From Mesostigma viride (taxonomy: Eukaryota; Streptophyta; Mesostigmatophyceae; Mesostigmatales; Mesostigmataceae): 64,000 nt of DNA. This document shows positions 12,015 to 42,916 of this stretch, piece by piece (within the stretch, counting starts at the first letter, position 1; each line of letters starts with the position of its first letter). Below the pieces are notes generated by a model. That model was given only the letters and a program-made list of their open reading frames with translations, had not been told where the DNA came from and searched no databases. Location: positions 729,561-793,560 of the forward strand of contig RPFO01001075.1 in the NCBI GenBank assembly GCA_009746045.1, read 5' to 3'. The position numbers were made by a program, and so were the translations under genes.

Positions 12015-13042
12015 GAAGGTAGGTTCACGTGCTTGTTCGTTGTCAAGAGAGGAATGCGTGCATGTGGGTGGGTGGGTGAACGCACTTTTTCCCTGTCAAG
12101 GGAGGGATGCATGTGGGGTGCATGGGTGAGTGCAAGTGCTTTTTCCTGTCAAAGGAGGGATGCATGTGGGGTGGGTGAGTGCAAGTGCTTGTTCCTTGTC
12201 AAGGGAGGGATGCACGTGGGGTTGGTGGTTGCACGTGCTTTTTCCTTGTCAAAGGAGGGATGCATGTGGGGTGGGTGAGTGCACGCGCTTGTTCCTTGTC
12301 AAGGGAGGGATGCATGTGGGGTGGGTGGGTGCACGCGCTTGTTCCTTGTCAAGGGAGGGGTGCATGTGCAGTAGGTGGGTGCACGTGCTTGTTTCTTGTA
12401 AAGGGAGGACTGCATGTGGGGTGGGTGGCTGCATGCGCTTGTTCCTTGTCAAGGGAGGGATGCATGTGGGGTGGGTGGGTGCATGCGCTTGTTCCTTGTC
12501 GAGGGAGGGATGCATGTGGGGTGGGTGGGTGCACGTGCTTGTTCCTTATCAAGGGAGGGATGCTTGTGCATTAGGTGGGTTCACGTGCTTGTTTCTTGTA
12601 AAGGGATGGATGCATGTGGGGTGGGTGGGTACACATGCTTGTTCCTTGTCAAGGGAGGGATGCATGCGCGGTGGGTAGGTGCATGCTCTTGTTCCTTGTC
12701 AAGGTAGAGATGCATGTGGGTGGGTGGGTGCATGAAATTGTTCCTTGTCAAGGGAGGGACGCAGGTGGGGTGGGTGGGTGCACATGCTTCTTCCTTGTCA
12801 AGGGAGGGATGCATGCGCGGTGGGTGGGTGCATGTGTGTGTTCTTTATCAAGGGAGGGATGCATTGCAGTAGGTGGGCCCACATGCTTGTTTCTTGTAAA
12901 GGGAGGGGTGCATGTGGGGTGGGCGGGTGAACGCACTTTTTCCCTGTCAAGGGAGGGATGCATGTGGGGTGGGTGAGTGCAAGTGCTTTTTCCTGTCAAA
13001 GGAGGGATGCATGTGGGGTGGGTGAGTGCAAGTGCTTGTCCA
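12015..13042. repeat. 50-bp minisatellite, array 1
   Basis: About 20 units of a 50-bp repeat follow the consensus GCACGTGCTTGTTCCTTGTC then AAGGGAGGGATGCATGTGGG then GTGGGTGGGT. Units differ by a few bases. The order of variants from about 12190 to 12900 is repeated in array 2 at 31.55-32.78 kb. Because 50 is not a multiple of three, the array is open in several frames on both strands. These Cys/Gly/Val-rich frames are not genes. Confidence 0.95.
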
Positions 13043-13324: not shown

Positions 13325-13639
13325 TTAACCCCTCAACCGTCCTCGTGCCGATTTTCGACTGCGAGTTTTTCTCATGCCTCACGTTCGGCATGAGTTTGTG
13401 CGCCCTGTAGGGATTTGGCGGGAAGGTTTTGGCGGGAACCAACTAGACCACCGAAAAGATCTAGATTCACTCTATCCGTAGGACACTTGTCTGACCGTAT
13501 TTGACCACCGTATCAGGGTGGAAACCCTGGTCAAAGTCAACAGGGTACCCTGGTTTTGGCAGGTTTTGGCGGTAAAAAAAATTGACAAAAACGTACGAAA
13601 ACGAAGGATGCGAAAAAAGGGGGGAGCGCGGACGTAGAC

Positions 13640-16063
13640 ATGGCGGACGAAATGCAGGCAGATATACGGACTTTCAAGGTAAAGAAGGGCATTTTCATTG
13701 CAGTGCCTGTGGAAAAGTTCGGACTAGACTGGGCGATACAGCAGTATGGGGAAAAACACAGCGAGGTACGTTTGCCGGGCAAGGTAGTGACAGTGAACAG
13801 GTCCGGAGATGGTGCACGTTGCTATTTCCCGGACGACAAGCTCACGTACCCATTCACCCGTGAGCAGATTTTCATATATTCGTGCAGCTCAGATGAGTAC
13901 GAAGCTCTAGTGAAAGAATGCGCAGCCAGGAAGGTCCCAACGTCAGGTAGCAGTGACGATGATAGCGAGCAGGGCCAGGATAGCGATTCTGACGCCGGCG
14001 AGGACGACGACGACAAATCCGAGGATATCGAGCTGCCCACACCGGTCAAGCGACGCGAGCCGGGGAAGCGCGCTGTCGGCAACCCGAAGAAGAACCCAGC
14101 CATCAGCCACGCCCCGAAAAGGCGCCGTCAGACCAAGGCGGCGGCCAGCGAGAGCGTTGTCTCGGACGCTTCCGATGACGACTTTGTTTACCAGAAGGAT
14201 GCGGAGGGTCCGGTGCCGAGCGGTGAGGCTGAGCTCGATGATTCGTTTTTTCCTGACGATACGCCTGCCACTGAGGAGCCAGCCGAGACCGTCTGGAAAT
14301 TTGGTTTCGGCAAGCCAGGCGTGTTTCCTTTTCCCGATACTCCGGTGCTGTCGCCGATGACGGGTACCGCCTGCTATCAAAACCTTTCCCCTGCCCAGCT
14401 CAAGTTTGGGCCCCTCGGGCTGTTCTCCCTTTTCTGGTCCCAGCGTGATGTCGTGGCCAAGATTGTCAAGGAGACCAACGACTATGCTGAGCTCAAGGGG
14501 GCGGGCAAGCCAGGTGGGCGTGAGTGGCACCCGATGACAATGCATGAGATGGGCAAATTTCTGGGCATCGTCATCACCATGGCCCTGGGCAGGTTCCCTT
14601 CGAGGGATGACTACTTTTCCAGCGAGGGGATGGGTGTGGGAAAGCCGGTCTGCTTCCAAGACGTGATGCCGCAGAAGCGGTTCGAGCAAATTGCACGCTT
14701 CCTCCACTGCCAGCCGACTGCCCAGCGCCCTGCCCGCGACACTGACCCGAGGGCGCACATCCTCTGGCAGACCCTGTGGCTCGAGGAGCACCTCAACGCC
14801 GCGTACATCAAGTACGTGAAGCCCGGGGACCGCATCGCGCTGGACGAGCGCTCCATCCCCACGCGCCACAAGATGTCCCCCGTGAAGTGCTTCAACCCCA
14901 CGAAGCCCGAGCAATTCCACATCAAGCTGTTCGCTCTGAACGACAAGACGGGCTACCTGCTCAAGGTGGAGACCTACGACAAGGTCAAGGAGGAGGACCA
15001 CACGTTCAAGGTGGTGACGCGCATGGTGTCCGTGCTCGAGCGCCCCGCCATCGTCGCGATGGACCGGTTCTACACGAGCAAGCGCGCCATCGACTCAGTC
15101 GCTGAGATGGGCCACCGCGTGGTCGGCACCATCTGCGCGAACCGCAAGGGGCTGCCCTTCGATGAGGTGGCGAAGCTCATGCCCAAGAAGAAGGAGGTGG
15201 AGCAGGGTGACTACGCGTGGGCGGCAAGCAACGAGGGGCACCTGCTGTGCAGCTGGCAGGACAAGAAGCCGGTGTGGACCCTCTCCAAGGGGCTGGGCGC
15301 CCTTGCGGAGGTGGCGGTCACCCGGCACGGCGGCCACACCGGGGTGCGGAAGACGGTGACCGCACCCCACAACATCGTGGAGTATTGGCTCACCTACAAG
15401 GCCACGGACGTGTGCGACCAATACTGCGCCGAGTACGACGTGTGCAAGGCCCTTGTGACGAGGGTGTGGTGGGTGCGCCTGCTGATGGGGCACTTCGCCA
15501 ACGTGCTCACCAACAGCTACCTGCTGCACGTGATGATCCACACGGAGTCCAAGACCGCCATGACCCACTCGAGGTTCCTGAGCGTGCTGGCCAAGGAGCT
15601 CGAGGCGAACGCGTGGCCGGGCGCAACCGTGCCCATCCGTGAGCTGCAGGCCACGGACATCCCCCTCAGCCGCACGGTGGGCCGATTTGGCCCCCTGCAC
15701 TACCCCGCCAAGAAGATCCCGTGGGTGGAGCAGGTGCTGTGCCAACTGTGCTGCGCGCAAGGCAGGAAGCACAAGACCTCGGTCATGTGCGAGCACTGTG
15801 ACATGGCGTTCTGCAGCAACAGCGAGCGGAACTGCTTCGGCCTCTTCCACTCCGGGCAGGTGGAGGGGCTGGACTTCAACGTGACGAAGCAGCGGGTATG
15901 GCAGCGCCTCTCCCAGCGTGGCGAATGCGCCAAGAATTTCAAGGGCGCCACTACCACGAGGGGGGCAGCAGCCACCACCCGGAAGCTCAAGGGGGTGGCG
16001 CGGCGCCGCCATCTCAGGGCGGAGCATGTCCGCCTGGGATATAGTCCTACGGAGGCTGACTAA
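13640..16063 (+). CDS. piggyBac transposase (DDE, C-terminal Cys-rich domain)
   Basis: This 807-aa uninterrupted protein would cut and paste its element at TTAA. Residues ~95-220 are acidic/Ser-rich, with basic KRR patches typical of nuclear import. The DDE_Tnp_1_7-type core follows. D402 lies in ALDERSIPTRHK, D475 in AMDRFYTSKRA (family pattern D-x-[FY]-[FY]-T-S), and the third-aspartate region is TDVCDQ, with D590 and D593. The C-terminus (~700-735) has a Cys/His cluster, CQLCC, CEHCDMAFC and CFGLFH, like the cross-brace zinc finger that binds the element's ends. The start is the first ATG after the 5' terminal region. It is longer than the ~600-aa insect founder mainly because of the acidic N-terminus. 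Nothing is missing, so activity is plausible. Confidence 0.95.
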   Translation: MADEMQADIRTFKVKKGIFIAVPVEKFGLDWAIQQYGEKHSEVRLPGKVVTVNRSGDGARCYFPDDKLTYPFTREQIFIYSCSSDEYEALVKECAARKVPTSGSSDDDSEQGQDSDSDAGEDDDDKSEDIELPTPVKRREPGKRAVGNPKKNPAISHAPKRRRQTKAAASESVVSDASDDDFVYQKDAEGPVPSGEAELDDSFFPDDTPATEEPAETVWKFGFGKPGVFPFPDTPVLSPMTGTACYQNLSPAQLKFGPLGLFSLFWSQRDVVAKIVKETNDYAELKGAGKPGGREWHPMTMHEMGKFLGIVITMALGRFPSRDDYFSSEGMGVGKPVCFQDVMPQKRFEQIARFLHCQPTAQRPARDTDPRAHILWQTLWLEEHLNAAYIKYVKPGDRIALDERSIPTRHKMSPVKCFNPTKPEQFHIKLFALNDKTGYLLKVETYDKVKEEDHTFKVVTRMVSVLERPAIVAMDRFYTSKRAIDSVAEMGHRVVGTICANRKGLPFDEVAKLMPKKKEVEQGDYAWAASNEGHLLCSWQDKKPVWTLSKGLGALAEVAVTRHGGHTGVRKTVTAPHNIVEYWLTYKATDVCDQYCAEYDVCKALVTRVWWVRLLMGHFANVLTNSYLLHVMIHTESKTAMTHSRFLSVLAKELEANAWPGATVPIRELQATDIPLSRTVGRFGPLHYPAKKIPWVEQVLCQLCCAQGRKHKTSVMCEHCDMAFCSNSERNCFGLFHSGQVEGLDFNVTKQRVWQRLSQRGECAKNFKGATTTRGAAATTRKLKGVARRRHLRAEHVRLGYSPTEAD

Positions 16064-17413: not shown

Positions 17414-17780
17414 GCGGCGCGGAGAGGTGAGGGAGGCGGGTGGGCGAGCGTAGCGTGGGGGGGGGGGGACGTCGACGGGTGTTTTGGCGCTTTTTATGAG
17501 GCGTTTTTTTTTTTCCCTCTTAGGCTTCAGGGTTTTTTTTTACGTCTGGGCGTCGCCTTTTTTTTTTGTGGGCGTTTCTGACCGTTGGATCGGCGCTAAG
17601 CAACCCAGTTTTTTGGGAGCGCTGATGGAATCTTCCGTCCGCCAGGATCCACGACGGAATCTATTGTTGTGGTGGTGGTGTTCCCACACGGGAGCGGGAT
17701 CTTCCGTTACAACACTTGGCTTCATACACTTGAATGTACCCGGGGATTTAGGGCACCGGCTACAGTCAGTCAGCTGTATG
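17414..17780. other. Spacer between piggyBac element and large transposon
   Basis: This is G-rich then T-rich low-complexity sequence with a G10 run near 17457. It has no coding or structural signal that I can name. Confidence 0.5.
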
Positions 17781-17859
17781 GAGGGGATTCATAAGTGTTT
17801 GCTCAATTTCATAAATTTTACTCAATTTTTCCACATGTGATTAAATCCTTATATTTGTC

Positions 17860-18733
17860 AATAAAGCAGGGGTCATCCAGCCTTCAGACCATGAAAATAG
17901 ACCACCCACAAAAATTGGGCTCATTCTGAGCTCAAATGGTGACATGTGACAGCATACATGTGCAGTTTTTCGTCATTTTCCCCCTTTTCTTACATGAAAC
18001 AAATATGAATAGTGGACAAATGAACTCATTTCAGGCTGGATTCTTGCAGGCAGCATTTATACCATGAAAATAGACCACCCACAAAAATTGGGCTCATTCT
18101 GAGCTCAAATGGTGACATGTGACAGCATACATGTGCAGTTTTTCGTCATTTTCCCCCTTTTCTTACATGAAACAAATATGAACAGTGGACAAATGAACTC
18201 ATATCAGGCTGGGTTCTTGCAGGCAGCATCTAGACCATGAAAATAGACCACCCACAAAAATTGGGCTCATTTTGAGCTCAAATGGTGACATGTGACAGCA
18301 TACATGTGCAGTTTTTCGTCATTTTCCCCCTTTTCTTACATGAAACAAATATGAATAGTGAACAAATGAACTCATATCAGGCTGGATTCTTGCAGGCAGC
18401 ATGTAGACCATGAAAATAGACCACCCACAAAAATTGGGCTCATTCTGAGCTCAAATGGTGACATGTGACAGCATACATGTGCAGTTTTTCGTCATTTTCT
18501 CGGTTATCTTACATGAAACAAATATGAATATTGAACAAATGAACTCAGATCAGGCTGGAAACTTGTAAGCAGCATGTAGACCATCAAAATAGACTGTTTA
18601 CAGCTCAAAAGGTGACAAATGAAAGGAAAACAATGCAGTTTGATGCCATTGCCACTGTTCTCTTGAATAAAACATTTTTGTGCGACCAAATGAACTCGAT
18701 CGATCATGTCAGGCTGGAAACTTGCAAGCATCA
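17860..18733. repeat. Left subterminal array of 173-bp repeats
   Basis: Five units occur at exactly 173-bp spacing; the marker ACCATGAAAATAGACCACCC starts at 17888, 18061, 18234 and 18407, and a degenerate fifth starts at 18580. Each unit includes GGTGACATGTGACAGCATAC and GAAACAAATATGAA. The reverse complement of the same repeat forms the right array. The inner copies are the most degenerate, and the array ends in a palindrome, TGAATCATGAA/TTCATGATTCA, at about 18735-18760. Confidence 0.95.
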
Positions 18734-19350
18734 ACTGAATCATGAAACTTCATGATTCAATCTGAGATGAAATGGGATGGCACAAGAGCAACCCAGGCCA
18801 TCGACAAGGCACATGTCTCGGCTGCCAGTGGCACGCCACGTACTCTTTCAGTCCAGCATGAATATACAATAAGTACTAAGACATCACCTTCTACTAGAAG
18901 CACTGGCTCACTTAATAATACATCAGAAACTAGTATAAGCTTAGCTGGTAAACCAGTCATTGCTCATAGTCCAGTCATTGGAGAAGTTTGGCCACTGCTG
19001 CAATGGGCGGCCGACACCATAGTTGGGCGGAGCTGACACGGATGATGGCACCCACGTGGTCACCGGGCGCCATCGTGGCACGGGCGTCGTGTTCCCAGAC
19101 ATGGCCAGTGTCGCAATTGAGTTGAGCGCAGCCACCGCCACAGAGACCGTGCCAGAGAAGGGGTCAATGGATGGGAGCCGGCGTCCACCAACCTGCACAC
19201 CACCACCCAGCACATCAAGCCAGCATGCCTTAGGGCACGGTATATGAAGGAATAATCAACAAACCAAACAAATATATCCTATATACTCCAACAAACTATT
19301 CACAAAGGCAGATTATGTTGATTCAAAGAAATCACAATAGGAAAGGACAT

Positions 19351-19662
19351 ACCTGGGGAAGTTGCATCTGAGCCAGCATTTGCTGCACTTGCGCGAGGGG
19401 CGCTACTTCGGCGTCCCCGTCAATTACTCGTGTAGTCGTTGTAGCGGCAGGGAGTGGGAGGCGATAGTGTTGCTGTTGTTGCAGCAGCTGCTGCAGTTGC
19501 TGCAGCACCAGCTGCTGCGGATGCTGCTGCTGTAGCAGCTGTTGCTGCATCGGCGGCTGCAGCAGCTGCTGTAGTTGCTGGTGCGGCGGCGGCGGCTGCT
19601 GCTGCAGCTGCTGTAGGAGCTGCTGCAGCAGCTGCTGCTGCTGTGGCGGCGGCGCCGGCTGC

Positions 19663-19707
<45 letters not shown>

Positions 19708-21510
19708 AGGAGCTGTGAGAGCTGCAGCAGCTGCTGTGGCTGCAGCAGCTGCTGCGGCGGCGGCTCCTGCTGCTGCTGTTGCAAAGGCTGCTGCTGCTGC
19801 TGCATTTGCTGCTGCTGCTGCAGCTGCTGTAGGAGCTGCTGCTGCTGCTGTTGGTGCTGCTGCTGCTGCTGCTGCTGTTGCTGTTCCATCTCCTGCATCT
19901 TGCGTTGCAGCTGCGCAACCTCCGCGTTGTACTGCTTGTGCTGGTCCGCGACAGTGCGGCGTAGCTTCGCTACTTCTTGGTCCGAGTCGCGTTCTTCACC
20001 CGAGTCATCGCAGCGTACATATACCGAGCTCGAGGGAGGCCTCTTGTTGCGAACACCACTCGCCCTGGCTTCGGTGCTCGGCTTGACTGGCACTTGAACA
20101 CCGCACTTGGGCTCTGCAGTTGGCTGCTGGCTGTCCGCCTTCACACGCTTGGAGCGTGTGGGGTGAACCAGCTGCGCCTCTGGCACGCTTTTGTTAGCGC
20201 GAGGTTGGCTGGAAGTGGCAGCTGGTGGTGGTGCCGTGGCAGCTGGTGGTGGTGCCTTGCGCTTTGGGAAGTCCTTTACCAAGTCAAACTTGACGGCCTC
20301 GCCTTTGTTTGTGTAGATCAAGCCACCAGATGTGGCTCGAAGCGCCGCCAGACCTGCGTTTGGCAGGTATTCGCACACAGCATCTAGCCGGTCGCGCAGG
20401 ACGGTCAGGTCGCCAACCGTGGCGACAGCACCATCCTCCATGAAGACGGGCCGAAGGGCCTGGGATTGTTGAGCCCAGTTCACGTAATATGCTGGGGGAT
20501 CAGGCGTCAGCTTGGTCCCCCCGCTCTTGACAGCCTTTTCCATCATGTCCTTTCTTCCGTACGGTGTGTTGGCCAGGAAGATCCCCGCTCCTCCAGGGTA
20601 CAAATGAAACCCAAGAATTACCTTGGGGAAGAGGGGTTTGCCAAACTCCTTATGAGGGATGGCGACGCGAACCAATTGTCCAACACGGAGATGGCCAGGG
20701 GAGGGGCCATCAGGGGAGGGAAGCCACGTCATAAACGCTGGAGCTTCCGACGCAAGTTGGTCGCCGGACTTGAGGTTCGCTGCATCAAAGCTGGCGCGCC
20801 GTGTCGCACTGCTAGCGCTGCCAGGCATGGCAGCTGCTGCCGGCTGGGCCTCGTCAAGGTTAGCGTGGTCTCCATGTTCTGCACCGCCTGCACAGGGGGG
20901 AGTCGCGGAGTCGGGGGGTGTGAGGAGTCGGGTAGGTCATCGTCCACCACCCCCGCGGTCGACTTTTCATCACTCGATTGAACGCCCTTGCTGGCATCAG
21001 CCGGAATTGACGGCACGTCCTCCTTGCTGCGTGCATCTGATTCCTGGGTGGCATGGCCGTCGGTAGTACCAGGAAACACTAGCTTCCTGCCGGGTGCCTT
21101 GTGATGTGCTTTCTCGAAGTCGTCAACGGCCTTGCATCCGGAATCATCCATCAACATGCGCCGGTCTTTGTCGGTGTTTGGAAGAAACTTGTTAGCAGCG
21201 GACCCCAGGGCCGGGGGGGAGTGCCGAGCTCATGATGACCGTTCGAACCCGAAGCTTGGAGATTGGCAACTTTCACGCCACCGGGGTCCACGTCACGGCA
21301 TCCTGGGCACCACCACTCCTCCCCATTTTTATTCCCGTCAATTGCCTTGACGCAGATCGCGTGAGCAAATAGGTTGCAGCTTTCACCATTTCGGCCCCGA
21401 CAGTTGTTGTCTGCCCCATCGGCATGGCCTAAGAGGCAAACACCCGCAGTTTGTCCATAACACAGTCGTTCTGCCCGCAGCCTCTCTGTTTCACTCAGAT
21501 ACTCCGCCAT
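19351..21510 (-). CDS. PHD-finger, poly-Q accessory protein of the large transposon
   Basis: Three overlapping minus-strand frames (21510-21151, 21157-20729, and about 20900-19332) read as one gene broken by introns or small indels. The first begins MAEYLSETERL and contains a Cys/His series, C-x-LGH, CRG, CNLFAHAIC and WWCPGC, which fits a PHD zinc finger. The second is acidic and Ser/Pro-rich. The third has a ~150-residue folded-looking part (PSPGHLRVGQLVRVAIPHKEF onward), a basic nuclear-localisation-like KRVK patch, then ~150 residues of Gln-rich sequence encoded by CAG/CTG repeats. The likely role is DNA or chromatin binding for the transposon, inferred from context. It is divergent from the transposase gene and shares its promoter region. 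Exact exon borders are uncertain. Confidence 0.65.
19424..19900. repeat. CAG/CTG trinucleotide-rich tract (poly-Q coding on minus strand)
   Basis: Interrupted CTG/CTN repeats on the plus strand encode glutamine runs in the minus-strand gene. Ala-rich frames (plus) and Ser-rich frames (minus) through the tract are artefacts. The repeat is impure (CAG with CAA, CTC and CCG), which fits a translated Gln/Pro-rich region better than a pure microsatellite. Confidence 0.85.
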
Positions 21511-21760
21511 ATCCCCTACAATTTAGCGGACGACGAACTTCATCGTCGACGACGTCATAGGCTGGCACGTTCTCGTTGTGTTCGTGCGCGCATGCCCTGC
21601 AGTGTTTTCTTGGCAGACTAGTGCACGCACCTCCACCCGCGCGCGCGCAAAGACGACGGTCACTGCGCTTTGTTCATTCAAATGCCATTTGCATGCGAGG
21701 CTCGGACAACGCCGCGGACTGTTTCAGAATTTTTTCACTTTTTGGATGGTCCTTCGTTTC

Positions 21761-22162
21761 TCGCATGTTCAGCCCAGTTCAGGTTGTACGGTCAGTGTTG
21801 GGGGTCGGTGAATGAGTTCTGAATGGAATTCTCAATGGAATGCCGCAACAGCCCATTTTCATTGAGAATGCAAGTCCTTTTTGCATGTTCAGCCCAGTTC
21901 AGGCTGTACGGTCAGTGTTGGGGGTCGGTGAATGGGTTCTCAATGGAATTCTCAATGGAATGCCGCAACAGCCCATTTTCATTGAGAATGCAAGTCCTTT
22001 TCGCATGTTCAGCCCAGTTCAGGCTGTACGGTCAGTGTTGGGGGTCGGTGAATGAGTTCTGAATGGAATTCTCAATGGAATGCCGTTACAGCCCATTTTC
22101 ATTGAGAATGCAAGACCTTTTCGTTTGTTCTGGCTGTACGGTCAGTGTTGGGGGTCGGTGAA
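21761..22162. promoter_or_regulatory. 120-bp tandem repeat in the shared promoter region of two divergent genes
   Basis: The markers GCATGTTCAGCCCAGTTCAG occur at 21763, 21883 and 22003, exactly 120 bp apart; a fourth, shortened unit follows to about 22162. Each unit carries GTCAGTGTTGGGGGTCGGTG and AATGGAATTCTCAATGGAAT. It lies between the start of the PHD-finger gene (21510, minus) and that of the transposase gene (plus). It therefore most likely holds promoter or enhancer sites for both; this is inferred from position only. Confidence 0.6.
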
Positions 22163-22277
22163 TGAATTCTGAATGGAACTCTCATGCGCCGCGCTGAGTC
22201 AGCGGAAGATCGAGCCACAAACGAGGCAGGAGAGGCATAATTGGGAGAGGCGTGCCAACATAATTGCGAGAGCTGCC

Positions 22278-25200
22278 ATGGGCGGTCGTGAAGGTTCAGA
22301 CTATTGGAGGCGCCGTGACGAATATGGTGGGGGGCGCTGGAATTGGATGTCGTTGGAAATTGAAGAAGACCCTTGCCCCAGGCCCCCTGTTTTAGCCGGG
22401 GATGAGGCAGCTTGCTGGAGAATGTTCGTTGCCGTTTTGGTGTTGCTGCTCTTACGTCCCGACCACCAGGGGCCTGTCTCGTACAAGGGGAATTGATGCC
22501 CAGGCAGCGTCGATTCCCCTTGTACGAGGCCTACAACGTCGTAGTAGACGTTGATCATGACGATCAGGTCGACCATCTGGATATCGGCAGTGATGACGAT
22601 GATGATGTAGGTGGTGGGTGCCGCACAGCAGGATTCAAATCATCAGCAACAACAGTACTGAAATACGCCTGTAATGCCCATGTGATCGCGGCAGAGCTGC
22701 GCGGGCGGTGTTGTAAACATAGATGCATACAAGATCCCCAGAGCCCCCTGTCATCCTTTGTAATATGGGAGGCGGCACGTAGCAAATATTGGGGGCTGTC
22801 CTGCAATGAACGCCGGCAGCTGGTGGTGGGGCTCTTTGTCGCTGCCGGCCTGGAGCATGTGACAGTCACCTTGCCAGAGTTTGGCCGACACCATGGGAAA
22901 TACGAATGCTCGGTGCCGGTTGTGGCGGAGGTGCTGGTGCATGGGCGACGGCACCACGTGGAGGGGTGCCACCATGCGATACGACGCATGTTTGGCATCG
23001 CCCACTCCACGTGGAGGACATACATGGCCGTCGCCAAGGCGGCCTGCAAGCTTGATCACGAAGTCTGGGAGGCGGACACCCTCGACGCCGTGGGGTGTGA
23101 AATACCAGGAATCTCTCACGGTAAGAAGACATGCTATCGTTCTGCCCTTCCTCCTTTTGGATGCAATTCACCTTATTGCTGCCCTGTTTTGAGAAATCTG
23201 TATGAGAAATGCTACTGTGCCTGGCAAGCCAAAAAAAATTTTTCCCCTCGCGGGGGCGCTGGAAAACGGCAAAGGCAAAGCGGAGCCCGCCGCCTTTTTT
23301 TGGCTTGCCAGGCACATTTTTGTTGTTTCATTACTATGTTTAATACCTGATGTTGCTCTCGCGTGTGCATGTTGAGGATGACCCTGCATGGATAACTTAT
23401 ATTCTTCATGCCTCTGTTGGTAAACTTGTCCATGTGATGTGTGCCTTGTGCAATGCAGGCGCTGGCAAACGCGAGCCGAGTGTTGTGCAACAGCGTAAAG
23501 AATGGGCTGTGGACTGGATTGCGGCATACGTGCAGACGAATGGCTGCCGCGATCCCACACGCGACAATGTATTGCTGCTAGAGAAAGAGAACTTGAAAAA
23601 CCTGTGGGAGCAGCAGTATTGTATGGATTGCATCGCGGTATGGGGCAACCCAACGGAGTCGAAAATGATGTACAAGTACACGGCCTTCACCATTCTGTGG
23701 AACGACGTCTGCGAGGGCAAATACAGCGACGGCTTGAAAATAGAGATGCAGAAAAACCGGCGCAATGTGGGGATTTGTGGGCACTGTGTGCTGTACCGTA
23801 CCCTCCGTGCGGCAGCGGGAACCAATCGGGAGCAGCTGGAGCGCATCACCCTGGAGCGGAATCGCCACCTGGCTGCCGTGCGAGTTGCGCGGCGCGAGTT
23901 TTGGAAGCGCCGCCGTGAGGGTGTGGATTGGCAGATCATATCCCTTGCGTGCGATAAGATCGACAGCAACAAGTCATACGTGCCGCACATGTGCGCGAAA
24001 CACGAGGGTTGGGAAAACGGAATAAACACATTGTTTCGTTTCTCTCTCTTTTGTGTCGCAGCCCACGGGTGGAAAACTTGTTTCTTCCAGGTGCTCCCCT
24101 GGGTGGCTGTGGCAGATCAGTCGGGGGGCATCACCGTCACGCTGCTCATGTGGGTGCTCTGTGAGCTCATCAAGGCCAAGCCTTGGGAGGGGAAGGGGCT
24201 GCCGATGCCTGATACCCTCCACCTGCAACTCGACGGGGGATCTGAAAATCGCAACGACACGGTGCTGCTGTGGGCGTGGTGGCTGGTGGCGTCGGGCTTG
24301 TTCGCGCGTGTCGAGATTCATCGCCTGCCAAGGGGGCACACCCATCTCGACATCGATCAGAAATTCGGACAAGTTTGGGGGTACTTCAAGCTGGGGGCCA
24401 ACGCACTGAAGGGTGCGGTGTGGCACACAGTGGAGGAGTATGGGGAAGCGGTCGTTGCCGCGTTTCGGCGTTCGGACACGTCGGACCTGGGTCGCACCAC
24501 GCCCGCAGGCACGGTCTGCTGGACCATGGGCGCCGCCTACAACATCGCTGCGTGGCTCATGCTCTTGAAAGAGCCGGAGCTCGCGAACTGGGCGATGTCA
24601 ACGGATTGGGTGGAAAACCCGCTGACGGGGGAGGCAGAAAAAAACACAAAGTCCTGCAAGGTTCACCATCTGATGTTGCGGCGTGCTGCGGACGGGGAAG
24701 TCTACTTGTGGTATAAATTCCATGACTTGCTCGAGTGGAGGCCGGACGGCGCCGACGGCGAGCACCCGCTGTGGACTAGGGAACACGACGGCAAGGAGTT
24801 GTATGGGGTATTGGTGGTGGACGGGGAGAAGGTGGAGCGCGCACTTGGGACGGTGCCCTCGCTAGCAGGCTTGGATTTGGACTTCCTGGAGGGCAAGATG
24901 CCAGGAATCCAGAGAAAGATCAAGGGCTTGATGGCTGGAGGATACGCGCAGTATTTAAAGAAGGAGGGCATGGACAAGTGGGAGGCCTTCTGGCCTCTTG
25001 TTCCAACTGGTGTGGCCACCGTGCCTGCTGAATGGCAGCCCCCCAAGTGGCCAACTAGAGCGGAAATCCAGGCGCTGCGGCGACCCAATCAGAGCGGAGC
25101 AGGCCCGAGTGCCACCACTGACCTGGATGCGGAAACGCGTCTAGCATTGGAGGGTGCTCGTTGCTTCGTGCCGCTGGTTGACCCCGTTGTCCACGCGGGG

Positions 25201-26114
25201 CGGCCCGCTGCTGTGCGACGCGCAGAGGATGCAGCGGTCGCGCTAAAGCAAGCATCCGCTGCAGCATGGGAGGGCATCGAGGTGGGGAAGCCGGTGATGT
25301 GTCAACATCCGGGGCTAAAGGACGGCTGCGATCTTCTGTGCAGCCCCCTAATGCCTTTCACTCCTTTGCTGTACGCGGTGGCCCGCAACATCACCGGCGA
25401 CTTATCGCCAGACGCCGTGGTTGAACTTGAGTGCTACGGCTCGCACTCGTACACAACGCGGTTTTCGCCCTTCAGCCCGAGCTCGGCCCATTTCCCCCTG
25501 CCCGCCGCCACAAGGACAGGTACCCACACATTTTCAGTGAAGGCAAGCACAATCGTCTTGTCTTCGTGGCGTGCGGGGGGGGCAAGGTGCGCCGGGTGGG
25601 CTTGACAAGCAGTGGCACATTGACGCAGCACACGAAGGATGCTGTTGTTGGGCTCTCGCTCGACTGGATTCAGTGGGATGGGTACGGAACCCCGGCGATG
25701 GCGGAGAAGACGGCGGTGGGACTTTTCAAATCGCGTGTCATGGACGTGCCAGAGCCGGAATGGTTGGTGGGGACCCTGGTATGCAAGATATTTTCGGGCC
25801 CCAACTCGGGGGAGAAGCGGTATCATGGCCATGTGACGGCCTTTAGTAAGGAGCACGACATGGCCCATCTGCTATACTCCGATGGCGACGATGAAATAGT
25901 GGGATTTGATGAGGTGCAGGCTGCGCTTTGCGCATGCCCCGGTGTGCAGTTGCCAAATCTTCCACCTGCGAGCATTGCGCGAGGGAAGGCGGACATTACT
26001 GAGTGCATTCGCAAGCAGGTCGCCCAGCGGTCCACGGCAATGAAGCAAGCCAAGGCCACCCCGCGCCACAAGCGCCGGCCTCCCATCATTCCTGATTCAG
26101 ACTCTGATGACTAG
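22278..26114 (+). CDS. Large transposase-like protein of the 11.3-kb element (RNase H-fold type), spliced
   Basis: Coding frames 22278-22496, 22500-23120, 23459-25500 and about 25500-26114 join into a protein of roughly 1,200 residues. A GT-AG intron lies at 23121-23458 (donor GTAAGA). Other frame changes at about 22490 and 25500 are small introns or indels. The N-terminal part has an Asp run and a Cys/His-rich region (CKHRC, CNERR). The core shows VADQSGG, LHLQLDGGSENRN and, ~30 residues later, RLPRGHTHLDIDQKFG. This D...D-x(2)-E-N...GHTH-x-DID layout is typical of integrase-like domains (DUF7869-type) in algal and animal repeats. The C-terminus (WLVGTLVCKIF...LLYSDGDDE) resembles a Tudor/Agenet-like reader. 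Function as transposase is inferred from these motifs and the element's termini. The first ATG is uncertain. Confidence 0.7.
22478..22528. repeat. Hairpin with 16-bp perfect arms in the 5' part of the transposase gene
   Basis: CTCGTACAAGGGGAAT (22478-22493) is followed after 19 bases by its exact complement (22513-22528). It lies where the transposase reading frame shifts. It could be part of a small excised segment or a footprint of a MITE; I cannot decide which. Confidence 0.6.
23216..23316. mobile_element. 101-bp MITE-like hairpin inside the transposase intron
   Basis: 22-bp perfect inverted arms (23216-23237 and 23295-23316, beginning TGTGCCTGGCAAGCC) enclose 57 bp of GC-rich sequence. 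It lies wholly inside the 338-bp GT-AG intron of the transposase gene. No clear target duplication is visible. It could be a miniature transposon or an intronic structure. Confidence 0.65.
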
Positions 26115-26280
26115 CCTTGCCGCATGTGGCTTTTAATTTTTCATGGCTGCCCTACCTTCTCGGTGCATGCTTTGCGGCTAGCAGCCTTGTGATCAACACA
26201 TTCCGTGTCTTATGACCTTGGTTCATAGGTTTATTACATGTCCTTACAATTGGTAGAACATATATTGTCTAATCACCAAG

Positions 26281-28021
26281 AAAATGTCCTCATATGAGGA
26301 CATTTTTAAGCATGGATACCATTTGTAATAACTCACACATTTCAACATATCCATGGGTACGGCATGGAACCATGTTCATTTATGATATGTTCAAGAGTAG
26401 CAATGCTTAACATCCATGAAATATGCTCATTGTATAATTGTTTACGATTTATGAATGCAGGGGGGTCGCTACGCGAGTGACCAACAAGCACTCAAGCCAA
26501 CAATATGCCCAGAAAGAAGGCAGGGCCAGGTCATGGCTGGTCCTGAAAATGCACCCAAGGTGCCCACAACATGTCTACATTACACCCTCGCTATCCTAGA
26601 CCCTGCAGCCTGCCGGGGGGGGCACAAAATGTAACTGGCAGCCAGGGACCATGGTGCAGGCCAAATAGCAGGTGTAAAGCTAGCTCAAAGCTAGCTCAGT
26701 CCAAAGAATGAAATAAGAAGCAAATACTTGCCAAGGTTAGGTCTGTGATCGTTATTGGAGGCTTGGCTGCCACCACGGTGCTCGACAATGATGCTTAAGC
26801 CTTCAATCATATATGAAGCAGATACTGCAAAGAGGCACAAATAGCAATACAAGCACAATGTAAGCATGAAAAGCTCAAGTTTCCAAGCCAGTCTAGCTCA
26901 CTTGGACATGAGGTTAAGCGTTAGAAACATATGGGCAACATCCCAGCAAGCCTTGAAAAAGTTTTCAGCAACAAGGCAGTATATGTGTTAAATCAAACTA
27001 CCACATTGCAACTAAGCACAGTGACTTCTACTTGCTGCTGTTTTGACGACGCAAGGCCGTTTACCTTTTCAGTGACACCACGGGAAAAGAAAGCATTACC
27101 CAGCAAACTTCCTTTAAGTTCCCCGGACATAGGCGTAATCACAACCACGACGTTGGGCATTGAAAAGAACCGGAATCATTAAGTCTGCGGGGGTTATAAG
27201 CTACGATACTCTTGACACGCTTATTTAGAACGATGCGGTTGCGGATGACATCCGGAACCTTGTTCTTGACGTGCGCCCAGGCCGCCAGCTGCGCGGGACA
27301 GCTCAAGAAATATATATTAAAGGACGGTGACGCCCGGGAAGCACCCAGCCTTGCGGCAAAAGTAAAATATGGCTCGCGCTCGCCGTGGTTTTCGCCAGGC
27401 GTGACTGCGATATCACGACGAAAAAATGGAGACTCTTTGACCCATCTAACTGCCCAGGTCCCTCTGTTGCCCGGGTCGCCCATTAACCCAGAAGCGTACC
27501 ATAACCCATACTCGCGATATCCGCAGCTACTGGGCGGAAAAAGAAATTGTAAAACCGAACTGCATACTGACCTATCATGCCATCTACGTAGCTTCCAGAT
27601 TTTCTTCAACGATGCCAAAATCCGTTCATGAACAATATTTTCGACATATACAAAGCACCTGCACGTCAAAAGCAGCATCTTCGAAATGAATAGATGATGA
27701 TCTAAAGTTCTGTCTTCATTCGGGGCAAAATAATGGCCTATAACGTTCAGGCAAGCCTCAGAGCTGGAACGACCCCATAGCCGTCACTCGACAAAATGCT
27801 CGATTACATTGCAACGTTCTTGCTGTAGTAGGTACTTTTCCTCGCCTCATATTTTCCAGGTACGGTCGGCCCCTGTCGACCCCGGGGGCTTGGCGCGCTC
27901 AGTACCTATCCCAGTTTCGCGCCAAAACCCACCAGGGATCCTCAGGACCAACTTTGGCGCCAAAACCGCCCCCCTGACCCCCCCCGTCTCAAACGAGGAC
28001 TATGTCCTCAAATGAGGACAT
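26281..28021. mobile_element. Putative nested 1.74-kb element bounded by palindromes
   Basis: A perfect 26-bp palindrome, core ATGTCCTCATATGAGGACAT, starts the interval at 26281-26306. The close relative ATGTCCTCAAATGAGGACAT ends it at 28002-28021. Frames in between (26931-27182 plus, 27139-27678 minus) match nothing I know. The interval separates the transposase gene from the right subterminal array, so it may be an insertion into the large transposon. Its outer limits and target duplication are not clear. Confidence 0.4.
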
Positions 28022-28134
28022 TTGGTTTTTGGACAATATCAAATGGGATAAAACCATATTTGGGTGAACAGGTTTCATGGCTCATGGCTCATCTATTTTT
28101 TTTCAATGGGATATGACGTAAAAGCTGGCAATGT

Positions 28135-29035
28135 GCATTTTCTAAATGCTGCCTGCAAGAATCCAGCCTGAAATGAGTTCATTTGTTCACTATTCATATT
28201 TGTTTCATGGAAGTTAACCGAGAAAATCACAAAAAACTGCACATGTATGCTGTCACATGTCACCATTTGAGCTCAGAATGAGCCCAATTTTTGTGGGTGG
28301 TCTATTTTCATGGTTTAGATGCTGCCTGCAAGAATCCAGCCTGAAATGAGTTCATTTGTTCACTATTCATATTTGTTTCATGTAAGAAAAGGGGGAAAAT
28401 GACGAAAAACTGCACATGTATGCTGTCACATGTCACCATTTGAGCTCAGAATGAGCCCAATTTTTGTGGGTGGTCTATTTTCATGGTCTACATGCTGCCT
28501 GCAAGAATCCAGCCTGAAATGAGTTCATTTGTCCACTATTCATATTTGTTTCATGTAAGTAAAGGGGGAAAATGACGAAAAACTGCACATGTATGCTGTC
28601 ACATGTCACCATTTGAGCTCAGAATGAGCCCAATTTTTGTGGGTGGTCTATTTTCATGGTCTAGATGCTGCCTGCAAGAATCCAGCCTGATATGAGTTCA
28701 TTTGTCCACTATTCATATTTGTTTCATGTAAGAAAAGGGGGAAAATGACGAAAAACTGCACATGTATGCTGTCACATGTCACCATTTGAGCTCAGAATGA
28801 GCCCAATTTTTGTGGGTGGTCTATTTTCATGGTCTACATGCTGCCTGCAAGAATCCAGCCTGAAATGAGTTCATTTGTCCACTATTCATATTTGTTTCAT
28901 GTAAGTAAAGGGGGAAAATGACGAAAAACTGCACATGTATGCTGTCACATGTCACCATTTGAGCTCAGAATGAGCCCAATTTTTGTGGGTGGTCTATTTT
29001 CATGGTCTACATGCTGCCTGCAACAGTCCAGCTTT
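28135..29035. repeat. Right subterminal array of 173-bp repeats (inverted relative to left)
   Basis: Five units of the reverse complement of the left-array repeat occur at 173-bp spacing, recognisable by ATGCTGCCTGCAAGAATCCA and GGGTGGTCTATTTTCATGGT. The units are very similar to one another. The array ends ~50 bp before the right terminal inverted repeat. Confidence 0.95.
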
Positions 29036-29123
29036 AGGTACCCTCAGATCTGAAAGATTTTTTTTTTACTCATTTGAAGACTTGTGAAATTGAGCAAACA
29101 CCTATGAATCCCCTCATGGGCGC

Positions 29124-30578: not shown

Positions 30579-31444
30579 GGGAGCGGGAGCGGGATACGGA
30601 AAGATTCCACCAGGTTCTTGTCAACCGCAGAATCTTTCGTATCCTCGGGACTTACTATACGTCCGGGGACTCCCTGGGATTCGCCGCTCATGGGCCGCAC
30701 AGAATCTATAGTGGCCGGGGGCCGTATATACATGGAGCCGCGGATTTCAGTACCGGTGGTACTTATCGGGGCAATGTGACGTGGACCAACTAACAAGGGC
30801 CCGGGGAGTTACGAAACCGGAATACCTAAATCCTGTCAGAAGACGTCCCTGGATTCATGTGGACGGATGGCTGCAACGGGATTCTAGCCTTGCATTCACT
30901 TAATTGCCGTACACCCCTAATAGATTCCAAACTTTCGCACCAGCAAATCTGCCCAAATCTGATTCCTTCTCTGGTGATGACGGATGGACCGGATAGATGC
31001 CCAGCTTCGTGGAATCGCAAACTACAGGTTGATACACAACTGTGGGTTATTCAGGAAGATCCTGGATCCCTGGGTCATGAATCCTCCATCGCAGCGGCAG
31101 GCCCAGGGCGGCGAAGCGTTGAGGACCCGCGACGAGATGCCAGGGTGCAGGCTAAGGTCACGATTGCGTAACCGTCATTAAGATCTGAAGTCTACGGCTG
31201 TCGCGCCCCAAGAACATGGGATTCACTACGCCCCAACCACCTGGCACTAAACACTACGTTTCCATGTTTCGGAGCTCCAAACCCGAGTAGATCCAGGGTA
31301 GATCCGATTCTTTGAGTGGCGACTGATATTCTCTTGTGTTAGTGCGAATTCCAAGACTTACAGAGAAGATTCTATCTCTTAGATCACCGAAATCTGTCAA
31401 ACATCCTTAGATTCCGGTCCGTGGGCTAAAAAAGTGGACAAGCC
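30579..31444. other. No recognisable feature
   Basis: This is mixed sequence rich in GATTC/GAATC words, beginning with a GGGAGC repeat. Short frames here (for example 30374-30793 and 30857-31171) show no domains. I can support no gene. Confidence 0.5.
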
Positions 31445-31546
31445 GCTTTCCTCACTGGACCCGAGTGCGGAAAGCAATTTGTCGCCACGCGGGCTGCTTT
31501 TCGCCCACGCGGGTTGCTTTCCGCACTCGGGTCCAGTGAGGAAAGC
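31445..31546. repeat. Inverted repeat with 32-bp perfect arms
   Basis: Arms at 31445-31476 and 31515-31546 begin GCTTTCCTCACTGGACCCGA and are exact complements. The 38-bp loop contains two copies of a ~19-bp unit (CACGCGGG-TGCTTT). It directly precedes the second minisatellite array and may mark the breakpoint at which that array was copied. Confidence 0.85.
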
Positions 31547-32785
31547 TCTACTTGTTCCTTGTCAAGGGAGGGATGCACGTGGGGTTGGTGGTTGCACGTG
31601 CTTTTTCCTTGTCAAAGGAGGGATGCATGTGGGGTGGGTGAGTGCACGCGCTTGTTCCTTGTCGAGGGAGGGATGCATGTGGGGTGGGTGGGTGCACGCG
31701 CTTGTTCCTTGTCAAGGGAGGGGTGCATGTGCAGTAGGTGGGTGCACGTGCTTGTTTCTTGTAAAGGGAGGACTGCATGTGGGGTGGGTGGCTGCATGCG
31801 CTTGTTCCTTGTCAAGGGAGGGATGCATGTGGGGTGGGTGGGTGCATGCGCTTGTTCCTTGTCGAGGGAGGGATGCATGTGGGGTGGGTGGGTGCACGTG
31901 CTTGTTCCTTATCAAGGGAGGGATGCTTGTGCATTAGGTGGGTTCACGTGCTTGTTTCTTGTAAAGGGATGGATGCATGTGGGGTGGGTGGGTACACATG
32001 CTTGTTCCTTGTCAAGGGAGGGATGCATGCGCGGTGGGTAGGTGCATGCTCTTGTTCCTTGTCAAGGTAGAGATGCATGTGGGTGGGTGGGTGCATGAAA
32101 TTGTTCCTTGTCAAGGGAGGGACGCAGGTGGGGTGGGTGGGTGCACATGCTTCTTCCTTGTCAAGGGAGGGATGCATGCGTGGTGGGTGGGTGCATGTGT
32201 GTGTTCTTTATCAAGGGAGGGATGCATGTGGGGTAGGTGGGCCCACATGCTTGTTTCTTGTAAAGGGAGGGGTGCATGTGGGGTGGGTGGGTGCACGTGC
32301 TTGTTCCTTGTCGAGGGAGGGATGCATGTGGGGTGGGTGGGTGCACGTGCTTGTTCCTTATCAAGGGAGGGATGCTTGTGCATTAGGTGGGTTCACGTGC
32401 TTGTTTCTTGTAAAGGGATGGATGCATGTGGGGTGGGTGGGTACACATGCTTGTTCCTTGTCAAGGGAGGGATGCATGCGCGGTGGGTAGGTGCATGCTC
32501 TTGTTCCTTGTCAAGGTAGAGATGCATGTGGGTGGGTGGGTGCATGAAATTGTTCCTTGTCAAGGGAGGGACGCAGGTGGGGTGGGTGGGTGCACATGCT
32601 TCTTCCTTGTCAAGGGAGGGATGCATGCGCGGTGGGTGGGTGCATGTGTGTGTTCTTTATCAAGGGAGGGATGCATTGCAGTAGGTGGGCCCACATGCTT
32701 GTTTCTTGTAAAGGGAGGGGTGCATGTGGGGTGGGTGGGTGCATGCGCTTGTTCCTTGTCGAGGGAGAGATGCATGTGGGCCGCT
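31547..32785. repeat. 50-bp minisatellite, array 2
   Basis: This is the same 50-bp unit as at 12.0-13.0 kb. From 31560 onward the series of unit variants follows array 1 from about 12195. A block of about nine units (for example the one with GCATTAGGTGGGTTCACGTG, at 31931 and 32380) is then repeated within array 2. It ends abruptly at a CT-rich minisatellite. Open frames over the array are not genes. Confidence 0.95.
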
Positions 32786-33159
32786 AGCTTCCCTCCCCTC
32801 CCCTCCCTTCTTAGCTTCCCTCCTTCCTTGCATTACTTAAGTTCCTATAGCTTCCGTCCCCTCCCCTCCCATATCCCATAGCTTAATGCCCTTCCCTTTC
32901 CTCCCTCTCCCTTTGTAGCTTTCCTCCCCTCCCTTTCTTAGCTTCCCTCCTTCCTTGCATTACCTAAGTTCCTTTAGCTTCCTTCTCCTCCCCTCCCTTT
33001 CTTAGCTTCCCTCCTTCCTTGCATTACCTAAGTTCCTTTAGCTTCCTTCCCCTCCCCTCCCATATCCCATAGCTTAATGCCCTTCCCTTTCCTCCCTCTC
33101 CCTTAGTAGCTTTCCTCCCCTCCCTTGCTTAGCTTCCCTCCCTCGTTGCATTACCTAAG
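32786..33159. repeat. CT-rich minisatellite, left part
   Basis: Tandem CT-rich units contain TAGCTTCCCTCCTTCCTTGC, ATTACCTAAGTTCC and CTTCCCCTCCCCTCCC. The array is split by the LTR retrotransposon at CTAAG (33155-33159) and resumes at 55008. Confidence 0.9.
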
Positions 33160-33732
33160 TGTTACGTCGCGTAACAATTCGTTGTAGTTACGGACGTAAA
33201 TGAGGTCTTTTGCCTCGGTTGTCCCTAGGTTTACGTTTAGGCTCCTACCGGGACATTATTGTCCTCGTAACAGTACTGTGGTACAATGGGTGCCGTTGGG
33301 CGCCGCGCCGCGTACTTTACTAGTGGTCCTGATCCTGTGGTAGAATGTAGTGGACCAGCGTGCATCAGTAGATGTAGTGGACCAGCGTGCATCTGTAGGC
33401 GAGGGCCATGTCGGCCCGAGCGTGTTGGACCGTTGGTGACCATTTATGCGCGTTCTACCCTTTGTGTGTGCACTCGGCGTGTGTTAAATGAATTAACACA
33501 TTTAGGCTTGGGTCACGGCAGTGTAGTTGTGTTTCCTTCCTCTATTCCTGGAGTAAACGGGTTTTGATAAATGGTTGTATGGCGTATTATAGTAACACAT
33601 ACGTTAATGCATTGAGATCAGCTCCGTCACGTTCGTCTTTCGCCAGAGGGTTGAGTAGAGGAGGCCTGACCAGTTTAGGTAGCATCAGGCCCATTAGAGG
33701 TAGAGGTGGAGGTAGATATCCGCGGCGTAACA
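33160..33732 (+). repeat. 5' long terminal repeat
   Basis: It begins with the self-complementary TGTTACGTCGCGTAACA and ends in CGTAACA. It contains a duplicated GTAGTGGACCAGCGTGCATC at about 33348 and 33372. A 93-codon frame within it is not considered a gene. It is identical to the 3' LTR except at about 33222 (G/T) and about 33285 (A/T). Confidence 0.95.
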
Positions 33733-34756: not shown

Positions 34757-36496
34757 ATGGATCCAGTGGGTGGTAACATGTCGCCTATACCTACCAATAC
34801 TCCTACTATGAGTAATAATAATAATAATAATATAACAACCATAACAACAATCGTGGTAACCGACGGGACTCACTTGAAACGGTGCACCATCTCACTCCTC
34901 AAGGTAATCTTCGTACCTCACCTCCTTCTCCTATTGCTGGTGGTCGCCGTCGTCCCTCACTTACCCCTCCTACCTATGAACAACGTCAACGTATGCAGGT
35001 CAGATTTAGTGATGACCCTTCCCTTACCCTGAACCAGGCCCCTGCCCCTCCTGCAACCTTGGCTCAACCCCCAGCAGGTCCTCACTAACTAACAATGTTT
35101 CTAGGCCTCCTTCCCACCCTGTGCCTTCCATGCCTGCTCTTAACACGGGTCGTGCCTCTGCCCCTGTCGGTCCTTCTGGGCGCCCTAGTGCAGTTCCCTT
35201 TTACCCACCTGCTTCCTGGTCCTACCCTGAGACGGCCTATGAGGCAGCCCAGGTCCCTACCCGTGTGGCTGATTTAGAAGTTAATAGTGATTTCAGCACC
35301 ATGCCCCTAGATGATAGAAATTATGATCATTTTGCCTATTCCTCTCTTCGTGAGCAATATACTGTCCCCTTCTCTTATGGGCACCAGCCTGAAACGGTGG
35401 CCCCTTCTAGACCCCTACCCAAGACTTTTCCTCTTCCTTCCTTCTATCCCGCTTATGTAGCAGTGGAAGATAGTGGCCCTATGGGAAAAACTGACTCTTC
35501 TAATCCCCCTAAGCCCCCTGCTCTTCCCCTCTTTGCTAACCTTCCCAAGCTGGATGTCAAGTCTACCCCTCAACAGTTTTTCACCTTTATTATGTTGCTT
35601 ACCCAGAACACGGAGTCGTGGCAGAATCATAATAGATGGCGTCTTCTGATGCTGTATTAGTTCCTCACTATCTTACAACCTGTATTACTCCTGAGCTTGC
35701 TAACCTCATTCAGTGTGAGTCTTTGGCCTCTCATGCCTACCCTAACTCTGTAGCAGAATTGTTTAAGCGTTTAGAGAACCATTTAGTCCCTCCTGATTCA
35801 GATTGGCAGGATAGATTAGCCTTTGGTACCTTGCAGCAGGGTACTAAATCATTTAAGGAGTATATGAAAGAGTTTGATGCTCAGATGGTACGAATTAGGG
35901 ATTTGTCGGGTGCAGAAGTACGTGCTCGCTTCCTCCAAGGCCTCAGTAGACCCTTATTACGTGAAGTCAAGCGCCAGTTCTCTGCCTACCGTTTTACTGA
36001 TCTGCCCCTCAAGCATGTGCGCCAGCATCTCTTGCGTGTAGCAGATTTCTTCACCACCCCTTCTCTTCCTACCCGTTCCCGTATTAATAATATTATCCTT
36101 ACCCCTGAGGAGGAGAACTCCTATGTAGAAGAATTAGATATCTGTGTTACTGACCTTTCAGCCCTTGATGTCTCTCATATCACATGCTATCATTGTAAGG
36201 AAGTAGGTCATCTTAAACGTGAGTGCCCCAAGTTCCTTTCGGGTGCTCCCCCTCATCCCGACGCTCGCCCTCCTCGTACCCCTCAGCGTGCTCCTATTCG
36301 TCCTACTTCAGGACGCATTCCTTCAGCTACCCCTAGTAGGCTGAATGCTGTGCAGACAGGATCCCCAGGGTTCCCCTATGATAATCAGGCTCCCGCACCC
36401 TCTTCGCTCCCTCGTGACCCTCCAGCAGTGGCTTTTTCGCCAGGGTCTTCTTCGGGGTTAGTTCCTATGGATTTGGGGGGGGAGGGGGAACAGTAG
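34757..36496 (+). pseudogene. gag (capsid and zinc-knuckle nucleocapsid), frameshifted
   Basis: The protein is distributed over four frames (34757 to ~34850, ~34850-35088, ~35100-35660, 35636-36496), so three frame changes interrupt it. The N-terminal third is Asn/Thr- then Pro-rich. The capsid-like retrotransposon gag domain lies at about 35560-36060, with FGTLQQGTKSFKEYMKEFD followed by RFLQGLSRPLLREV. One CCHC knuckle, CYHCKEVGHLKREC, is at about 36186-36230, followed by a Pro/Arg-rich tail ending at 36496. It would form virus-like particles and package RNA. The frame changes sit in T/C-rich and repeat stretches, so some may be sequence errors. Confidence 0.8.
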
Positions 36497-36609
36497 GCCT
36501 GTCAGCCGGGGGTAACCTGGACAGGTCCTTAGATAGTACCCCAGATAAAAATTTTTGCCTGCCTGTTTTTATAACCTCTGTAGGAGCTGAATCTTCCCTA
36601 CCACTACGT

Positions 36610-37215
36610 GTGCGTCCTCTTATGTTCTTGAATGGTGGTTTAACCGTCCCTCACACTGTTGTAGACCCTTTCCTGCATGCTGATGAACTCTTGAATGTCT
36701 CTGTGTTGGTAGATAGCGGTGCGGCTAGCTCCTTTGTGAGCGAGGCCCTAGTTAGGCGTTTAGGACTAGTCCCTACCCCTCACACCAAACCCGTCACTGT
36801 TCATTATGCTGATGGTCGCACCAGTCATTCCCCGGGTACGGTGTCCCTTCCCATGGTTATACAAGGACGTACTGTCAACCTGACGGCCACTATAGGCCCT
36901 ATCACTACCGCTGATGTATTACTAGGATTAGATTGGCACCAGGATAATAAGATTACTATTAATTATGATACCATGGTCATCTGGTTTCCAGATAGCTCTT
37001 ACTGGGTACCGGAACGTCATTATAGATTGGAAAATTTATCCTTGGTAGATATTACTCCTCCTACACCTGTTGATCCTCCTGTAAGACCTATACCTGAAGT
37101 ATTAATGTCCAATGATGAGTTGCGTTCTGAACTAAAGGAATATGGATATTTATTATGTATGTTCCTTCAGTTAGAAGTACAGGAGATACCTATCCTAATA
37201 ATAGTGTGGATATAG
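36610..37215 (+). CDS. Aspartic protease region of pol
   Basis: This frame contains VLVDSGAASSFVSEALVRRL, with the DSG active-site triad of retropepsins, and later TADVLLGLDW, the family's second motif, ILG/LLG followed by D. It would process the Gag-Pol polyprotein. It overlaps the reverse-transcriptase frame at 37155 in a different phase, so either a frameshift mutation or a programmed shift joins them. Confidence 0.85.
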   Translation: MRPLMFLNGGLTVPHTVVDPFLHADELLNVSVLVDSGAASSFVSEALVRRLGLVPTPHTKPVTVHYADGRTSHSPGTVSLPMVIQGRTVNLTATIGPITTADVLLGLDWHQDNKITINYDTMVIWFPDSSYWVPERHYRLENLSLVDITPPTPVDPPVRPIPEVLMSNDELRSELKEYGYLLCMFLQLEVQEIPILIIVWI

Positions 37216-38217: not shown

Positions 38218-38392
38218 TTAACCCATACTCCGTCAAGTGTATCCATTTGGATACACTTGCACCCCCCGCCACGTGGCAAAATATTACGCGAGCGCCGCGC
38301 CATCGGGTACGGATGTAAGTGGTCAGGCAACTCGGGACAGACCCAATGTGAACGTAAATGCCTAGGTTGGTGGGATAATTGCGCCATAGCCA

Positions 38393-40648: not shown

Positions 40649-40652
40649 TTAA

Positions 40653-41940: not shown

Positions 41941-41949
41941 TCACTCGAG

Positions 41950-42910: not shown

Positions 42911-42916
42911 GTGATT

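Follow-up and report, generated by a model that had tools for sequence, protein, structure and literature searches.

Zisupton elements are of large size and carry 99-bp subterminal repeats. Some subfamilies of Galileo, which belongs to the P superfamily, have tandem repeats of varying number inside their inverted ends, and these were proposed to act as secondary binding sites (PMC3573991). RAG-like (RAG1L/RAG2L) elements are DNA transposons with two genes, the second of which encodes a protein with a PHD finger (PMC7204232). KDZ elements, which were reported in Chlamydomonas (PMC8226300), generate target site duplications of 7 bp (Kyakuja) or 8 bp (Dileera) (PMC12730594). Duplications of 3 bp are known from EnSpm/CACTA, PIF/Harbinger and Zator elements (PMC12730594, PMC10045372). 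Here, we analyzed a transposon with two divergent genes in Mesostigma viride, a streptophyte whose genome has been described (PMC6947507, PMC7027972). It lies in a stretch of 64,000 nucleotides (the window; contig RPFO01001075.1, positions 729,561 to 793,560, assembly GCA_009746045.1), to which all positions refer unless stated otherwise.

The element is one copy of a DNA transposon that has moved recently and generates a 3-bp target site duplication. Both of its edges, 17781 and 29115, are exact, as a preliminary description of the locus had placed them, and ATG is found on both flanks. The terminal inverted repeats, described there as 33 bp, are 31 bp long with one mismatch; none of 100 shuffles gave a match. 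When the genome was searched with the left 120 bp, at least 40 matches were obtained, all with 100% identity. This is a lower bound, as 40 of 171 candidates were scored, and the window's own copy was not among the 40. Fourteen of 20 other copies that were fetched have both tips, and all 14 are flanked by an exact 3-bp duplication (15 of 15 with the window copy). The remaining six showed no right tip in the stretch fetched. Three pairs of derivatives have equal lengths and different duplications (L012/L013, L011/L021 and L022/L028).

Filled and empty sites were then compared, as the preliminary description had proposed. The flanks of 17 insertions (15 of the window family and one each of the diverged families A and C, see below) were joined after removal of one copy of the duplication, and the product was compared with all fetched sequence. 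Eight of the 17 joined flanks had a match spanning the junction and thus a paralogous empty site; nine had no such match within the fetched sequence, among them copy L016, whose right flank comprised just 30 bases. The best empty sites were those of L023 (window 36175-35776, 99.75% of 400 bases) and L026 (window 35846-36191, 100% of 346 bases), and the weakest was that of L017 (82-86% over 132-167 bases). The sites of L023 and L026 lie inside an open reading frame (ORF; 35636-36496) that is retroelement-like by eye.

L016 carries both ends and both genes at another locus, so that the element does recur in the genome as a whole. It measures 9,558 bp and shares 99.9% and 99.1% identity with the window copy on the two sides of a 1,770-bp insertion in the latter. 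Neither L016 nor L009 contains this insertion, which has imperfect TGTC..GACA ends and an ATAT duplication, and L015 passes into other DNA at the same point. Therefore, the element proper measures about 9.56 kb, and the 11.3 kb given earlier was rejected as the family length because it includes the nested insertion. What had been called a coherent autonomous system is indeed a two-gene transposon, as indicated by L016, the duplications and the empty sites, but the autonomy of the window copy itself is questionable in view of the nested insertion and a frame change in the transposase gene. An ORF of the insertion (27139-27783) has a near-identical copy that adjoins family D at another locus.

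A match to the annotated transposase P0001 (see below) was missing in 17 of the 20 fetched stretches and in 13 of the 14 two-tip copies, indicating that these 13 are non-autonomous. Seven of the 20 copies (L010, L014, L018, L019, L022, L026 and L028) carry a piece of exon 3. Since the identity of this piece is only about 77%, the ends of the window family may also belong to a sister family whose transposase has diverged.

Diverged relatives of the transposase (35-39% identity) formed the groups A, B, C and D with at least 10, 4, 7 and 15 matches. The groups were set by shared identity and query range, and one locus of each was read. Single transposase loci at 58% and 40% identity were also among the matches listed. 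Families A, B and C are diverged to 33-35% identity. At the loci read, family A spans 10,188 bp with the duplication ATG, family B 11,189 bp with TTG, and family C 10,364 bp with TTG. All three have termini of about 30 bp, a DUF7869 gene on one strand, and a divergent gene with PHD-like and Q-rich regions. The empty site of family B was found at six places with one mismatch each. The 483-bp inverted repeats on the outside of B turned out to be a palindromic repeat that had served as its target. This repeat, seen around B in L035 (481-1130) and in L036, is present in several direct and inverted copies, and the six empty sites lie in such other copies.

The plus-strand gene of the element encodes a protein matching the Pfam domain PF25273 (DUF7869) at profile positions 34-133 of 192, with an expectation value (E) of 2.3e-14. 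The domain is common to families A-D (E 3.5e-14 to 8.6e-11), in all five cases above the curated cut-off, and Pfam names no function for it. Over the 714 residues searched, the annotated protein P0001 (Mesvir1 label) is 100% identical, and the splice 23120/23459 follows from it. Further downstream, the frame of the spliced gene changes near a run of eight G (25575-25582). The same two-frame pattern was found in L009, L015 and L016, and families A-C have a single frame (one locus each). In a genome search with the transposase (76 matches; 59 of 1041 candidates scored), at least 15 matches of at least 98% identity, the window included, reach residue 754 or beyond, and 14 of them are without stops. 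The protein search matched only P0001; its candidates were limited to exact shared words and capped in number, so the absence of others weighs little. Scans of viral contigs gave no relative of the transposase, and a comparison with solved structures by sequence gave no credible match (three matches, best E 0.25).

In an alignment of the five sequences (window and A-D), D210-K-x-D213, D303-GGSENRN, RGH338-x-H340-x-D342-x-D344-Q and C151-x-x-C154 are invariant. The sole invariant glutamate after the second acid is located within the DGGSENRN motif, so the third catalytic acid is probably D342 or D344. We infer that the DUF7869 protein is a transposase with an RNase-H fold and the three acids D210, D303 and D342 or D344. 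Its C-terminal part is Tudor-like, and this part matched in six of six pairs (E at most 6.3e-8; BLASTP among the window, A, B and C only).

The second gene lies on the minus strand, divergent from the transposase gene as described before, and encodes a PHD-like finger and a poly-Q region. The PHD assignment itself reached only E 0.1 in the Pfam scan, which covered the PHD-like ORFs of the window and of family A. The PHD-like Cys/His region can be made out in families A, B and C as well. The PHD-like parts matched in five of six pairs (E at most 2.9e-4; BLASTP among four sequences, composition correction off), and the pair of window and B gave no match in this comparison. The PHD-like/poly-Q protein and the Tudor-like tail of the transposase would be chromatin-reading parts. 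Tandem repeats with differing units are found between the divergent genes in three families, namely in the window (Table 1), at 3230-3751 of the family A element, and at 6956-7234 of the joined family B stretch.

The ends of the four families (window, A, B and C) have a common layout. On the left, all four have 19 bp as the best direct shift of the inner terminal motif. On the right, the best inverted match starts at 37, 38, 37 and 37 bp, respectively, with a tie in B. For A, B and C, the direct repeat given by local alignment of the 45 bp behind the two terminal repeats was equalled in none of 500 shuffles. The word TTAGGACA, chosen after the ends had been seen, occurs exactly four times per whole element in A and C, always at the places of the end motifs. 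Since A and C share this word, their ends are not independent. The weight of the layout comes from the recurrence of the same position in four families and not from the match counts. The second site is thus oriented differently at the left and right ends, and this difference may help to pair left with right.

The window family also carries inverted arrays of a 173-bp unit behind its ends. Five units per side had been described; the right array has five, and the left one has four plus a degenerate fifth. Compared with the first left unit, the other eight intact units of the window copy agree at 160-171 of 173 positions. Across the 15 two-tip copies, the number of units varies from 4 to 11 on the left and from 5 to 14 on the right. 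An initial impression that the array unit carries the terminal motif (post hoc p 0.0055) was not confirmed by an unbiased test, and the claim was dropped.

Taken together, a mobile DUF7869 transposon with a 3-bp duplication, a two-protein mechanism and the arrays as an add-on is very probably the best joint explanation. In the proposed mechanism, the DUF7869 transposase would bind the inner terminal motif and its second copy, which lies 19 bp inward in direct orientation on the left and from 37-38 bp in inverted orientation on the right. As the two ends would be non-equivalent, left-right pairing may be favoured. The transposase would then cut the element out and insert it by a 3-bp staggered cut, and the PHD-like/poly-Q protein, together with the Tudor-like tail, would read chromatin. 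The 173-bp arrays would be an addition of the window family and its short derivatives, perhaps raising the local concentration of protein.

Several observations weigh against this explanation. The duplications of A, B and C come from one locus each, and family D showed no terminal repeat in 15.6 kb. A truncated transposase may result from the change of frame near 25575-25582. D427 is invariant in the five-sequence alignment, too. AlphaFold models from single sequences reached predicted local distance difference test scores (pLDDT) of only 35 and 41, so that the fold and the catalytic acids are deduced from the sequence only. The Pfam matches to PHD are under the cut-off (E 0.1 in the window, 0.0046 in family A), as is the Tudor match of the window (E 4.8e-4), and a Tudor profile was not reported for A-D. 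With regard to the ends, another shift does as well as 19 in A and B, the match counts of 10-12 of 19 are within the range of random sequence, and the window family, taken by itself, gives p 0.052 for the subterminal direct repeat. Two of the four families with the shared layout, A and C, have related ends. Finally, the unbiased test found no common word of array unit and terminal repeat beyond chance (p 0.36).

The DUF7869 protein could instead be a passenger of an element that is moved in trans by another transposase. Mobilisation in trans does occur, as the 13 two-tip copies without a P0001 match still moved. However, the DUF7869 gene has been kept in four families, among which the end sequences differ while the end geometry agrees, and seven scanned ORF pieces of the window element matched no other transposase profile, which makes a passenger role very improbable. 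A different question is whether the mirrored arrays are a satellite that was picked up by the element and has no role. The variable number of units would fit this, as would the loci of families A-D, which had no unit in 71,207 bases. On the other hand, all 255 units of the 15 two-tip copies lie inside the tips and none lies in the flanks (97,803 bases, of which the window contributes about half). Their distances to the tips are also near-constant: on the right, 107 bp separate the end of the last unit from the tip in 15 of 15 copies, and on the left, the first unit starts 105 bp inside the tip in 13 of 15. In the window copy, L012, L013, L016, L017 and L024, left and right units resemble each other as closely as do units of the same side, but in L010, L018, L022 and L028 the resemblance is lower. 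We consider a satellite without a role unlikely, and free satellites were rejected within the fetched sequence, where arrays independent of the element had been looked for. The earlier idea that the arrays are binding sites gained from their tie to the ends and lost from the lack of a word shared with the terminal repeat and from three related families without 173-bp arrays.

The combination of two genes, ends and duplication fits none of the superfamilies compared, which are few of the 23 named in Repbase (PMC10045372). No named transposase profile matched the window pieces or families A-D at E up to 1, a range in which the HMMER filters drop most matches above E 0.1. KDZ elements had been named as the nearest comparison. 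This kinship did not hold up, and KDZ membership was rejected, since 15 of 15 copies and the single loci read of A, B and C have duplications of 3 bp, as opposed to 7-8 bp, and since the KDZ transposase profile of Pfam was among those unmatched. EnSpm/CACTA and CMCT elements have duplications of 2-5 bp (PMC12730594), and the 3 bp found here fall within this range. Their termini are CA..TG in most cases, in contrast to GAG..CTC or GGG..CCC here. The C(2)C and H(3-4)H motifs of CMCT between the second D and the last E are absent, given the assignment of D303 and D342/D344. PIF/Harbinger and Zator share the 3-bp duplication, but the Harbinger-type and ISAzo13-like transposase profiles were unmatched at E up to 1. 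RAG-like elements have convergent genes, 5-bp duplications and heptamer-like termini, whereas the genes here are divergent, the duplication is 3 bp and the termini are different; no RAG or kelch profile matched in the pieces scanned. Galileo differs by 7-bp duplications and a P-superfamily transposase. Membership in an already named superfamily (KDZ, CACTA/CMCT, PIF/Harbinger, Zator or another), with a divergence too great for the profile to match, appears rather unlikely. The known 3-bp duplications, the small number of superfamilies compared and the placement of Plavaka, which was corrected in print, speak for such a relationship; the differences in termini, motifs and duplication length and the five proteins that match DUF7869 and no transposase profile speak against it. 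The word DUF7869 was not found in the literature searched, which covers few subscription papers. Tentatively, and with somewhat less than even confidence, DUF7869 could represent an unnamed superfamily of eukaryotic transposons with three catalytic aspartates (DDD), 3-bp duplications, a need for two proteins with chromatin-reader modules (PHD-like and Tudor-like) and an inner site that is turned on one end, which would enforce the pairing of left with right ends, somewhat like the 12/23 rule of RAG.

Table 1. Parts of the transposon and their positions in the window.
Feature	Position	Strand	Basis or remark
Left target site duplication ATG	17778..17780	.	Exact 3-bp duplication, likewise in 14/14 other two-tip copies
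Left terminal inverted repeat, 31 bp	17781..17811	+	Repeat comparison and shuffles
Left subterminal direct copy of inner terminal motif	17816..17827	+	p 0.052 in window family alone; shift 19 is best
Left array, four 173-bp units, degenerate fifth to about 18747	17886..18577	+	
Gene 2, PHD-like finger (about 21298-21384), poly-Q (about 19471-19883), three overlapping frames	19332..21522	-	
120-bp tandem repeats between the divergent genes	21763..22184	.	
Transposase exon 1, frame open from 22406	22406..23120	+	Splice 23120/23459 as in annotated P0001
Transposase exon 2 with DUF7869 (24115-24453), putative end	23459..25575	+	
Candidate catalytic acids in exon 2	D210 at 23953; D303 at 24232; D342 at 24349; D344 at 24355		
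Transposase C-terminal part, other frame; Tudor-like (25773-25922) and CxCPG motif	25583..26114	+	Putative start, from families A-C
Nested 1,770-bp insertion, outside the element proper	26266..28035	.	Absent from L016 and L009
Right array, five 173-bp units, inverted relative to left array	28144..29008	-	
Right subterminal copy of inner terminal motif	29064..29075	+	Same absolute orientation as left copy
Right terminal inverted repeat, 31 bp	29085..29115	-	One mismatch to left
Right target site duplication ATG	29116..29118	.	

Elsewhere in the window, a long ORF at 13586-16063 is piggyBac-type transposase-like by eye. A 300-bp direct repeat (33159-33458 and 54434-54733, 99%) perhaps represents long terminal repeats, and the ORFs at 35636-49917 between its two copies look retroelement-like. 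A 50-bp tandem array is present at 12019-12818 and at 31432-32630, 19 kb apart, with partly identical stretches.

With these results, a probable function in transposition, as the transposase itself, can be assigned to DUF7869, so far a Pfam domain without a named function. The proposed mechanism is testable, as one algal genome holds both near-identical copies and several diverged families. The constancy of the end geometry, while the sequence words change, provides a concrete prediction on how the two ends of a transposon are told apart. Furthermore, if chromatin reading by the PHD-like and Tudor-like parts holds true, the element would represent an independent partnership of a transposon with chromatin readers, as in RAG1/RAG2.

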